From the NCBI GenBank assembly GCA_002401685.1, contig NVTU01000008.1, positions 1 through 64,000 of the forward strand: a stretch of 64,000 bases of DNA, in the 5' to 3' direction. The translations under genes and the position numbers were made by a program. Shown here in pieces: positions 799 through 4,532 of this stretch (the first letter of the stretch is position 1; every line of letters begins with the position of its first letter). A model generated the notes under the pieces. The model ran no database searches. It was not told the origin of the DNA and saw only the letters and a program-made list of their open reading frames with translations. The stretch is from Kordiimonadales bacterium (GTDB lineage Bacteria; Pseudomonadota; Alphaproteobacteria; Sphingomonadales; Kordiimonadaceae).

Positions 799-2025
799 AT
801 GGCCGCACAAAAGGTCATTGCCGTTGTATTTGGCGGTCGCAGTGTAGAGCACGACGTAAGTGTGCTAACGGGCTTGCAGTTCCTTGAGGCGCTAGACCCC
901 ACAAAATATACTGGACTACCGGTTTATATCGACCCGCTTGGCCAGTGGTGGACCGGAAGCGCGCTTACAAAGCGCAGCCGCTATCCTATAGCCGCAGGTA
1001 CCGCGAAAGACCTAACCCAGCTCACGCTTGACCTTGCAACGCCCGCAAGTGGCCGCCCCCAGTTCATTACCTTCCAAAAAGGATTGATGGGTGAGAAGCG
1101 CACGAACATCCCTTTTGATCTGATCGTTCCAGCCATTCATGGCTCTAACGGGGAAGACGGCACCTTGCAGGGCTTGCTTGAGTTTGCTGACATTCCTTAC
1201 ATAGGCTGCCGTTCGCTGGGCTCTGCCGCAACCATGCATAAGATTTTCGCGAAAAATGCTGCCCGTGCTGCAGGTATAAACGTATTGCCCGAACTTTCAG
1301 TGAAACGCCCCGCGAAAGGGAGTTTTCTGGATCCGGCGACCCTAGAGGCCGACCTTAAGTCAGCTTTTGGCGCTATAGAGTTTCCGCTGATCGTAAAGCC
1401 CTGCAATCTCGGCTCAAGTGTCGGTGTCGGAAAAGCAGACGATATGGACGCTGTTATTTCATCTCTGATGACAGCCTTCAGGCTGGATAACGAAGCGCTT
1501 GTTGAACCCTTCGTAGCCAATCTGGTTGAATATAATATCGCAGTCAGGCGAGCACCGACCGGTGCGACGGTTACGTCCGCGATCGAACGCCCAGTTCGCG
1601 AAGCGGAACTACTTGATTTTAAAAACAAATACCTCGCGGGCGGTGCGCCTGGTGGGCCAAAACTGGATGCCGCACCTAGCGAAGGCATGGTTTCCCTGAA
1701 CCGCACCCTGAACCCGAGCGAGCTGTCCGACAAACAAAACAGCTTTATCCGCACCAGCGCCTCAAAGCTGTTTGACCAATTGTCCTTGGCTGGCAGCGTG
1801 CGCGTTGATTTTCTCTGCAATGAAAAAACCGGTGAGATCTGGCTTAACGAAGCCAATACAATTCCTGGCTCCTTCGCGTATTTCCTTTGGGAGGCGGCTG
1901 CAAAGCCTATCAGTTTCCTTACTCTCACCGATGAGCTGATCCAGGAAGGCTTTGCCTTGTCCGCGGCGCGGCTCGGTGCGACGGACACTAAGTCGGGCGG
2001 CGCAACTATATTTGCAGCGGGATAA
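799..2025 (+). CDS. D-alanine--D-alanine ligase family ATP-grasp protein
   Basis: VVFGGRSVEHDVSVLTG N-terminus, ATP-grasp core (FPLIVKPCNLGSSVGVGK), RVDFLCNEKTGEIWLNEANTIPGSF. Confidence 0.85.
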   Translation: MAAQKVIAVVFGGRSVEHDVSVLTGLQFLEALDPTKYTGLPVYIDPLGQWWTGSALTKRSRYPIAAGTAKDLTQLTLDLATPASGRPQFITFQKGLMGEKRTNIPFDLIVPAIHGSNGEDGTLQGLLEFADIPYIGCRSLGSAATMHKIFAKNAARAAGINVLPELSVKRPAKGSFLDPATLEADLKSAFGAIEFPLIVKPCNLGSSVGVGKADDMDAVISSLMTAFRLDNEALVEPFVANLVEYNIAVRRAPTGATVTSAIERPVREAELLDFKNKYLAGGAPGGPKLDAAPSEGMVSLNRTLNPSELSDKQNSFIRTSASKLFDQLSLAGSVRVDFLCNEKTGEIWLNEANTIPGSFAYFLWEAAAKPISFLTLTDELIQEGFALSAARLGATDTKSGGATIFAAG

Positions 2026-2029
2026 GCGA

Positions 2030-2788
2030 ATGAAGTCCCCTGCACCTTGGCATGTCGAAACCATAGGCTCAACGGGCACGCCGCTTGTTTGGCTGCACGG
2101 CTGGGGCTATGATCACAAAGGGTTAGGGCGCATTGCTGCCTTGTTTGAAGCACGCAATATAAACCAGCTTTATGATCTGCCTGGCTTTGGCCAAACGCCG
2201 ATGATGCATGAAGGCGCCTCTACTTCAGACTATGCTGATCGCCTTGTTGAACTATCCCCAAAAGACCAAAAATCTGTTCTTATCGGCCACAGCTATGGCG
2301 GTAGAATAGCCGTACAATATGCCGCTAAATACCCCGACCGTGTTTCTGCGATCGTGCTTATTGCTGGCGCAGGCCTACAGCGAAAAAGATCCCTATCCTT
2401 TAAAATTAAAGCAAGTTATCTGCGCATGATAGGTCGTTTAGCACGGCTATCTGACAGGATTGTAAAAACAAATTTGCGCGAAGCCTATACCGCCCGCTTC
2501 GGTAGCGCAGACTATAAAAATGCAGGGCCTTTACGGGCCACGCTCGTAAGCGCAGTCACCGAAAACCTGACAGCAGAAGCCGCCAACGTAAAGTGTCCAG
2601 TTTTGCTGATATACGGCGCAGAAGACACAGACGCACCGCCTGAGATCGGCAAACACTACGCAAAGCTGATGCAAAAGGCGCGATTTGTTGAACTTGCGGG
2701 CTATGATCATCATGATATTCTGCAGCGCGGCGCCTACCAGTGCGAAGCGCTTATCAAAAGTTTCCTGAAGGAAATACCCGATGCCTGA
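2030..2788 (+). CDS. alpha/beta fold hydrolase
   Basis: WLHGWGYDHKG, GHSYGGRIA nucleophile elbow, C-terminal GYDHHDILQ; start at internal ATG 2030 directly after the Ddl stop. Confidence 0.85.
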   Translation: MKSPAPWHVETIGSTGTPLVWLHGWGYDHKGLGRIAALFEARNINQLYDLPGFGQTPMMHEGASTSDYADRLVELSPKDQKSVLIGHSYGGRIAVQYAAKYPDRVSAIVLIAGAGLQRKRSLSFKIKASYLRMIGRLARLSDRIVKTNLREAYTARFGSADYKNAGPLRATLVSAVTENLTAEAANVKCPVLLIYGAEDTDAPPEIGKHYAKLMQKARFVELAGYDHHDILQRGAYQCEALIKSFLKEIPDA

Positions 2789-4532
2789 GATACCGCCACA
2801 GCTAATGATCATCGCCGCTGGCGCCCTGCTGGCCCTTTGGTTTTCAGTCGAACGTGGCCTGAGCCTGATGATGTTTTTCCAGCAGGAAGAGTATGACGGC
2901 CCGCGTTTTATCGTTTGGCTAAAAGAAAAGCGCGGTTTCGACAAAACAGCTAGTCTTTGGCTAAGTGCTGCTGTGCTTATAGGCGTGGTTTCGCAGATCT
3001 TGCTTTCGCAGACTGAAAGCAGCATAGCCCTTGCAGGGTTTGCAGCTCTTATTTGGCCAATGCTTGCCCTCAGCTTTGTGGTAGGAAGCTTGAAGTCACG
3101 CACAGTACGAAAAAACTCAAAAAAGCCTCTGGTTCTCACTACCCGTGCCAAACGCATCCTTTCGGTATACGTGCTTTTGGCGCTGGGTTTGTTCGCACTA
3201 GTTACTTTGATTGCCTTGCTTGCGCCCAAAGGCAGCGAGTATGCGATCCGGTTCGAAAGCGATAGCGGCAGTATATTTGATTATATTGGTTTCGTACAGC
3301 TGACCTATGATTGGCAACTTGTTACGACGGCTTTGTTATTGCTCTTATTCGTTCAGACGCTGCCATTCTTATTGGTTGGCGCAAACAAAGTTTTGGAACC
3401 GTTTGAAGAACGCGTGAAAGCCCGCTTTCGGGACGAAGCCCTAGAAAAGTTTGCAGAGTTAAAACCAAAGACAATCGCGATTACAGGCTCCTACGGGAAA
3501 ACATCCACGAAGCACATCCTCGCTCACATCCTCGGAGCGGCAGCGCCAACACTTGCTACCCCAGGCAGCGTCAATACCGAAATGGGCATCACCCGCGTGA
3601 TCCGCGAAAGCCTGACGCCCGAGCACCAGTTTTTCATTGTTGAAATGGGCGCATACGGCCCCGGTTCCATAGCACGGCTTTGTAAATTGACACCGCCCGA
3701 TATTGCTATGATTACAGCCTTGGGCCCGGCGCACTATGAACGGTTCAAATCACTCGACACCGTGGCCCGAGCCAAGTTTGAACTTGCAGAGGCCGTATTT
3801 CTGCAGGGCGGAACAGCGATCGTCAATAAAGACGGCATGGACGAAAAGCTTCTTATCGAGCGCATGGCTGCCGTACCAGGTAATTACAGCCTTGTGGGCA
3901 AGGATGGTGCGCTTTCTCTTACCGCAACCACCATGGATAAAAATGGTCTCACCCTGCAGGTCTCTGAAGGTAGCGAAACTCACACACTAAAAGCACCGCT
4001 TTTTGGCTACCATCAAGCTGGTAACATCCTTCTAGCAGCAGCTTGTGCCCGGGCGCTTTCTTTACCTTGGACTGCCATTAAAGGTGCGCTTGCTTCGGTC
4101 CCGCAAATTCGCTTTCGCCTTGAGGTTAGCAAAAATACTGGGCAACCCACCCTTATCAATGACGCCTACAACAGTAACCCCGTAGGGTTCGCCGCAGCGC
4201 TCGAATGCTTGGACACGTTAGTGGAAGATAGTGGGCGCCGTATCTTAGTGACACCCGGAATGGTCGAGCTCGGCGAAAAACATGACCAAGAACATGAACA
4301 TCTCGGAGCGCTTGCAGCAAAACACGCGGATATTATTGTAGTTGTTACACCTGCGCGTATTCCCACCTTCATGAAGGGGCTGGAACAGAACAATGATGGC
4401 TCGGTAACAGTGATGACATTCGACAAGCAGGAAACCGCTGAAGCTTGGGTGAAGCGCAATTGGAAAGCCGGCGATGCCGTACTTTTCGAAAATAATCTAC
4501 CAGATCTTTATGAAGCCGACTTTAGCTTTTGA
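2781..4532 (+). CDS. Mur ligase family protein (MurF-like) with multi-TM N-terminal region
   Basis: Mur P-loop TIAITGSYGKTSTKHILAHIL, NTEMGITRVIRE, NDAYNSNPVG; about 200 aa hydrophobic N-terminal extension. Confidence 0.85.
   Translation: MPEIPPQLMIIAAGALLALWFSVERGLSLMMFFQQEEYDGPRFIVWLKEKRGFDKTASLWLSAAVLIGVVSQILLSQTESSIALAGFAALIWPMLALSFVVGSLKSRTVRKNSKKPLVLTTRAKRILSVYVLLALGLFALVTLIALLAPKGSEYAIRFESDSGSIFDYIGFVQLTYDWQLVTTALLLLLFVQTLPFLLVGANKVLEPFEERVKARFRDEALEKFAELKPKTIAITGSYGKTSTKHILAHILGAAAPTLATPGSVNTEMGITRVIRESLTPEHQFFIVEMGAYGPGSIARLCKLTPPDIAMITALGPAHYERFKSLDTVARAKFELAEAVFLQGGTAIVNKDGMDEKLLIERMAAVPGNYSLVGKDGALSLTATTMDKNGLTLQVSEGSETHTLKAPLFGYHQAGNILLAAACARALSLPWTAIKGALASVPQIRFRLEVSKNTGQPTLINDAYNSNPVGFAAALECLDTLVEDSGRRILVTPGMVELGEKHDQEHEHLGALAAKHADIIVVVTPARIPTFMKGLEQNNDGSVTVMTFDKQETAEAWVKRNWKAGDAVLFENNLPDLYEADFSF

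Follow-up and report, generated by a model that had tools for sequence, protein, structure and literature searches.

MurF is regarded as a universal and essential enzyme of peptidoglycan synthesis and as a drug target. In Van operons a ligase, a dipeptidase or hydrolase and an extra MurF paralogue are found side by side. MurT is a Mur ligase without a uridine-binding domain, and it amidates lipid I/II, not precursors linked to uridine diphosphate (UDP) (PMC6085368). Here we describe a three-gene operon at positions 799-4532 of a 64,000-nucleotide stretch of Kordiimonadales DNA (the window; G000:C60:1-64000; its draft genome spans 2.68 Mb and is 77% complete). It encodes a long-form D-alanine-D-alanine (D-Ala-D-Ala) ligase (Ddl), an alpha/beta hydrolase and a MurF-like ligase with a membrane domain. 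As judged from sequence comparison and structure prediction, the operon is probably the D-Ala-D-Ala branch of peptidoglycan precursor synthesis, replacing DdlB and MurF and working at the membrane. Its features, with the evidence for each, are as follows.

799-2025, plus strand: long-form Ddl, 408 amino acids (Pfam PF01820/PF07478, catalytic residues)
1846-1893, plus strand: clade signature NEANTIPGSFAYFLWE, residues 350-365 of the Ddl, in a loop shorter than that of S. aureus Ddl (alignment)
2030-2788, plus strand: alpha/beta hydrolase, 252 amino acids, ATG at 2030 (Pfam, invariant triad)
2781-4532, plus strand: membrane MurF-like ligase, 583 amino acids (open reading frame, Pfam, alignment, tree, AlphaFold2 model)
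2781-3467, plus strand: predicted N-terminal membrane domain of five helices in place of MurF domain 1 (AlphaFold2 model, hydropathy, positive-inside pattern)
2880-2918, plus strand: conserved cytosolic membrane-edge motif QQEEYDxxRFxxW, residues 34-46 (alignment, topology)
3120-3155, plus strand: conserved basic cytosolic motif KKPLVxTxRxKR, residues 114-125 (alignment, topology)
3480-4049, plus strand: Mur_ligase_M (ATP-binding) domain, with the P-loop TGSYGKT at 3483-3503 (Pfam)
4116-4487, plus strand: Mur_ligase_C domain, with NDAYNSNP at 4158-4181 (Pfam, alignment)

The three open reading frames, separated by a 4-nucleotide gap and then overlapping by 8 nucleotides, lie where the original prediction, made from the letters of the window, had placed them. 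The motifs that it quoted (the C-terminal motif of the Ddl, and ITGSYGKTSTK and NDAYNSNP of the Mur ligase) are present exactly as given. The suggested survey of co-occurrence also bore the triad out. The gene order was retained in 17 of 18 related loci, which is far beyond chance, and the hydrolase adjoins the membrane ligase in nearly all loci.

The long Ddl is strictly paired with the membrane ligase. Among 81 genomes of the order, 34 had the long Ddl, 41 the short DdlB, none both and six, all incomplete, neither. The membrane ligase occurred in 33 of the 34 long-Ddl genomes (in one via a partial match) and in 0 of the 41 DdlB genomes. It was additionally present in two incomplete genomes with no detected Ddl, for a total of 35. 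A survey of 289 genomes of the class gave 20 with the ligase and 20 with the long Ddl, 19 being common to both; the exceptions were G111 (84% complete) and G148 (78%). Public relatives of the ligase that carry names are mostly Kordiimonadales, and a sample of 399 genomes of the phylum gave four ligase matches, all in Alphaproteobacteria and none outside the class. Membrane Mur ligases might also be expected in Firmicutes. One further class genome, G315, has two Ddl genes (C5:267764-268126 and C5:383748-384128), the second much more divergent.

Within the window's own genome, PF01820 matched the window Ddl and no other protein; the remaining PF07478 matches were weak and had no PF01820 domain. 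The division and cell wall (dcw) cluster on contig C61, with genes named by sequence inspection and later matches, reads ftsI-like, murE, murF, mraY, murD, ftsW, murG, murC, murB, ftsQ, ftsA and ftsZ, and it contains no ddlB, none lying between murB and ftsQ. Because no second ddl was found in the genome or in its dcw cluster, the window Ddl is very probably the essential Ddl of its genome. The original prediction had looked to canonical copies of both ddl and murF elsewhere in this genome; this holds for murF, of which C61 carries a canonical copy, and fails for ddl. In this organism the cassette may accordingly offer an additional route to the MurF product beside an intact-looking murF, not the sole one.

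Many relatives have no such murF. A full-length canonical MurF was not matched in 13 of the 35 order genomes with the membrane ligase, compared with 1 of the 41 DdlB genomes (Fisher p 1.4e-4, genome relatedness ignored). Hidden Markov model (HMM) searches gave no MurF match in 8 of the 13 ligase genomes of the window's genus, at completeness of 96-100%. Across the class, the membrane ligase was the sole MurF match in 8 of 11 ligase genomes that were ≥90% complete and ≤5% contaminated; of the other three, G297 has a MurF without the DxYNANP motif and two have an intact-looking MurF. Of 223 comparable class genomes lacking the ligase, 218 gave a MurF match at ≤1e-45, a few of these matches being weak. 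Nine class genomes (G109, G336, G151, G156, G234, G251, G346, G096 and G325) had no detected ligase and a weak best MurF match, which could represent either a divergent MurF or a membrane ligase missed by the profile.

The dcw clusters of G006, G137, G352, G313, G196, G300, G216 and G315 run murE-mraY-murD with no murF between, and no ddlB lies between murB and ftsQ in the MurF-less clusters read that far. In G006, the murE and mraY reading frames share four bases. A tblastn search for a MurF hidden in the murE-mraY gaps gave no significant match, and assembly gaps were ruled out as the cause of the loss in the clusters read through. The rest of the pathway is retained: MurE of G006, G137, G313 and G196 scored above the cut-off of the equivalog adding meso-diaminopimelate, and an FtsI-type transpeptidase is present in all four MurF-less clusters tested. 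Mur-ligase matches in G006, G313, G352, G196 and G315 comprised MurC, MurD, MurE, the membrane ligase and at most one weak, FolC-sized protein.

If MurF has been replaced, graded decay of MurF would be expected, as is seen across fused and degenerate copies. Four genomes (G129, G328, G231 and G100) carry a MurF remnant at the C-terminus of MurE, and these fusions occur in two families:

L083:6654-9065, MurE-MurF-remnant fusion
L088:1969-4281, MurE-MurF-remnant fusion
L089:1878-4145, MurE-MurF-remnant fusion
L090:397-2670, MurE-MurF-remnant fusion

In these remnants the P-loop and C-terminal domain are missing and domain 1 is alignable; of the three scanned with Pfam, domain 1 was confirmed in G129 and G231, not in G328. 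Its retention may reflect ongoing decay or a scaffold for substrate binding. In two other genomes a damaged MurF occurs beside the membrane ligase: in G244 a MurE-fused MurF lacks the catalytic His and DxYNANP (L087:6911-9994), and in G297 MurF has lost the catalytic motif (L092:3116-4801). Canonical MurF in genomes with both enzymes departs from the invariants of DdlB genomes at 8-57 of 125 columns, compared with 2-13 in leave-one-out controls, a difference that is confounded by evolutionary distance as a sign of relaxed evolution.

These distributions bear on whether the ligase has an accessory role, serving a non-peptidoglycan or modified peptide of the envelope, with the loss of MurF unrelated to it. 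The canonical murF of the window's genome would fit such a role, and the original prediction had called the pathway accessory. We consider it highly improbable, as MurF absence is concentrated in ligase genomes, and several of these have no other MurF candidate yet possess MurC-E, MraY, MurG and FtsI. The label also sits poorly with a Ddl that is the only one in its genome and with ligase relatives that dispense with canonical MurF.

The membrane ligase itself matched Pfam Mur_ligase_M (9.5e-34) and Mur_ligase_C (5e-12). Residues 1-233 matched no Pfam family above cut-off, and the protein has no match to PF01225, so that the domain 1 by which MurF binds UDP-N-acetylmuramic acid (UDP-MurNAc) was not found. 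Its best profile was MurF TIGR01143 (221.4 bits, positions 65-403), and the first 64 positions of this profile, unmatched by the ligase, belong to the UDP-MurNAc-binding domain. The AlphaFold2 model (mean predicted local distance difference test (pLDDT) 90.8, predicted template modelling score 0.83) comprises five helices followed by MurF domains 2-3. Foldseek placed MurF at the top (4qf5, E 9.1e-25), and the best PDB matches covered ~367 columns, a length that corresponds to the MurF portion. Model and topology both indicate five membrane helices, at about residues 6-35, 55-77, 91-111, 121-146 and 179-205, consistent with the earlier suggestion that multi-spanning sequence had taken the place of MurF domain 1. 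Hydropathy and the positive-inside pattern predict Lys/Arg-rich cytosolic and Lys/Arg-poor periplasmic loops. The two best-conserved motifs of the membrane domain, QQEEYDxxRFxxW and KKxLVxTxRxKR, are both on the predicted cytosolic side.

Seven residues of the ligase (P-loop K240, E288, H318, K332, N415, R446 and D461), whose catalytic roles we presume from those of other Mur ligases, were invariant in 29 diverse sequences, and the enzyme looks catalytically active. In a maximum-likelihood tree, which carries a long-branch warning, 29 membrane ligases grouped as a single clade (100/99) next to MurF (99/90), with MurC, MurD and MurE placed elsewhere. By this placement the membrane ligase is of MurF ancestry and constitutes a sister clade to MurF. 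Pseudomurein ligases and cyanophycin synthetase gave weak scores only. Identity with MurT was also rejected (19.6 bits against a cut-off of 800), and no GatD-type partner was conserved outside the order.

Both Ddl domains were matched in the window Ddl (Dala_Dala_lig_N 1.6e-29, Dala_Dala_lig_C 4.1e-28), and E17, K277, Y278, R335, E351 and N353 were invariant in 22 sequences; we take these to correspond to positions of E. coli DdlB. The long Ddl thus has an invariant Lys-Tyr pair in the omega-loop, as is typical of D-Ala-D-Ala ligases. By alignment, then, the enzyme retains the residues expected for D-Ala-D-Ala synthesis, though with a shortened loop close to the second substrate. Its scores lie below the NCBIfam subfamily cut-offs (230.6 vs 262 and 221.3 vs 245.65 bits), and the predicted model has a mean pLDDT of 85.6, with residues 279-300 poorly predicted.

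The altered, shortened loop at the second D-Ala and the joint exchange of Ddl and MurF could indicate that the pair makes and attaches another dipeptide, such as D-Ala-D-lactate or D-Ala-D-Ser, with the hydrolase clearing the normal product in the manner of VanX. In glycopeptide producers, Van operons resemble just such a set of ligase, hydrolase and MurF. We regard this as improbable, however. The Ddl scored far under the cut-offs of the Van-type models (VanG, 159 vs 495 bits; D-lactate type, 121 vs 550 bits), which together with the invariant Lys-Tyr led us to reject a Van-type resistance ligase and speaks against the D-Ala-D-X resistance chemistry that had been suggested at first. Outside the order the triad is accompanied by no other conserved gene, and where both enzymes occur the long Ddl must supply canonical MurF too.

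Replacement of the DdlB-MurF pair by the long Ddl and the membrane ligase is a well-supported reading of these comparisons, because the Ddl is the sole one in its genome, the pairing is strict, MurF is lost or decaying in relatives, the ligase appears to be of MurF ancestry and the catalytic residues are intact. In the proposed mechanism, the Ddl would make D-Ala-D-Ala and the membrane ligase, with ATP, would attach it to the tripeptide stem, an activity of the ligase that we infer only from the replacement pattern. As the UDP-MurNAc domain has given way to membrane helices whose cytosolic loops are conserved and basic, the likeliest acceptor would be a tripeptide carried on lipid (lipid I or lipid II), to which we give about even odds. 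The last peptide step would then come after MraY, not before. Given the membrane helices and the many relatives without MurF, that step has probably moved to the membrane in those organisms. In several alphaproteobacterial lineages, MraY and perhaps MurG might take the tripeptide, with the membrane ligase completing lipid I/II and UDP-MurNAc-pentapeptide no longer made, a scenario to which we give somewhat less than even weight. In the window's genome the canonical MurF route and the membrane route may operate in parallel.

Mur ligases can act in membrane-associated complexes, and the membrane ligase might replace MurF yet still use soluble UDP-MurNAc-tripeptide, its helices serving to tether it to MraY or to the division or elongation machinery. 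The MurE-fused remnants that keep domain 1 in four genomes could then supply substrate binding. We think this unlikely: domain 1 is missing from the ligase, no MurF remnant occurs in the murE-mraY genomes read, and the conserved basic loops at the membrane edge are better explained by contact with lipid phosphate than by tethering.

Several observations weigh against a replacement of MurF by a ligase acting on lipid-linked substrate. The window's genome, G194 and G276 retain canonical MurF with its motifs, and the membrane ligase falls under the curated MurF cut-off (221.4 vs 288.6 bits). Many of the surveyed genomes are drafts, and the absence of MurF within the window's genus is an HMM search result, not a reading of dcw clusters. 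The lipid-linked acceptor is based on the domain loss and the analogy with MurT.

The hydrolase matched Pfam Abhydrolase_6 (2.5e-18), and its catalytic triad Ser88-Asp199-His227 was invariant across 24 homologues. No membrane or signal segment was seen in its sequence. A cytosolic role in turnover or proofreading of the dipeptide or stem end is a doubtful guess.

Since the 5′ end of the window is the end of contig C60, the question of adjacent mur genes upstream is limited to one visible gene, a metallo-beta-lactamase-like gene at 2-583. Comparison of gene neighbourhoods outside the order found no recurrent neighbours besides the triad. In L014, L015, L027 and L030, genes resembling murJ (lipid II flippase) and trpS by eye lie upstream of the triad. 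Genome G110 has a very divergent triad in the order hydrolase-ligase-Ddl (L072:3905-7501); its ligase has 32% identity and reads HMLQLNGYK where others have FFQQEEYD. In G315 the dcw cluster ends in a tail-to-tail arrangement of murB with the hydrolase and membrane ligase (L080:1-3121), a direct physical link of the cassette to peptidoglycan genes. Plasmid spread was rejected: in tblastn searches with the window and L072 ligases, the matches listed covered the shared Mur domains only. A Subdoligranulum match proved to be a canonical MurF; its sequence (L093; OY725839.1, Subdoligranulum variabile 'plasmid 5') has dcw-like murE, murF, mraY, ftsW and murG and is probably a chromosomal piece.

No description of the three-gene set was found in the open-access literature, with subscription journals and bioRxiv outside the scope. 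The original view of an under-described system that is located at the membrane and forms amide bonds is supported. In these Alphaproteobacteria the other pathway enzymes are retained, MurF appears to be dispensed with, and the one remaining candidate is its membrane relative lacking the substrate-binding domain. The textbook order, in which the pentapeptide is completed on the UDP carrier before MraY, thereby becomes testable in natural MurF-less species. Replacement would also explain why such genomes may be annotated as lacking murF and ddlB.

Compared with Van operons, the window operon differs in that its ligase is the only Ddl, no Van score exceeds the cut-off and no further partners are conserved. 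The window Ddl has both Ddl domains and the catalytic residues in common with DdlA and DdlB; it is longer (about 410 amino acids), has an altered PGSFAYFLWE loop and takes the place of ddlB. Like MurT, which acts with GatD in lipid II amidation, the membrane ligase lacks the N-terminal domain with which Mur ligases bind uridine, but MurT differs in its cysteine-rich insertion, its GatD partner and its amidating function, whereas the membrane ligase is MurF-like. MurF (TIGR01143; PDB 4qf5, 1gg4, 4cvm) is its nearest family by HMM, tree and fold. The two have in common the central and C-terminal domains, the P-loop, the Glu/His/Lys/Asn/Arg/Asp pattern and D(A/S)YN(A/S)NP, and the membrane ligase is set apart by five predicted helices in place of domain 1, a sister clade of its own, a sub-cut-off score and an operon shared with the Ddl and the hydrolase.

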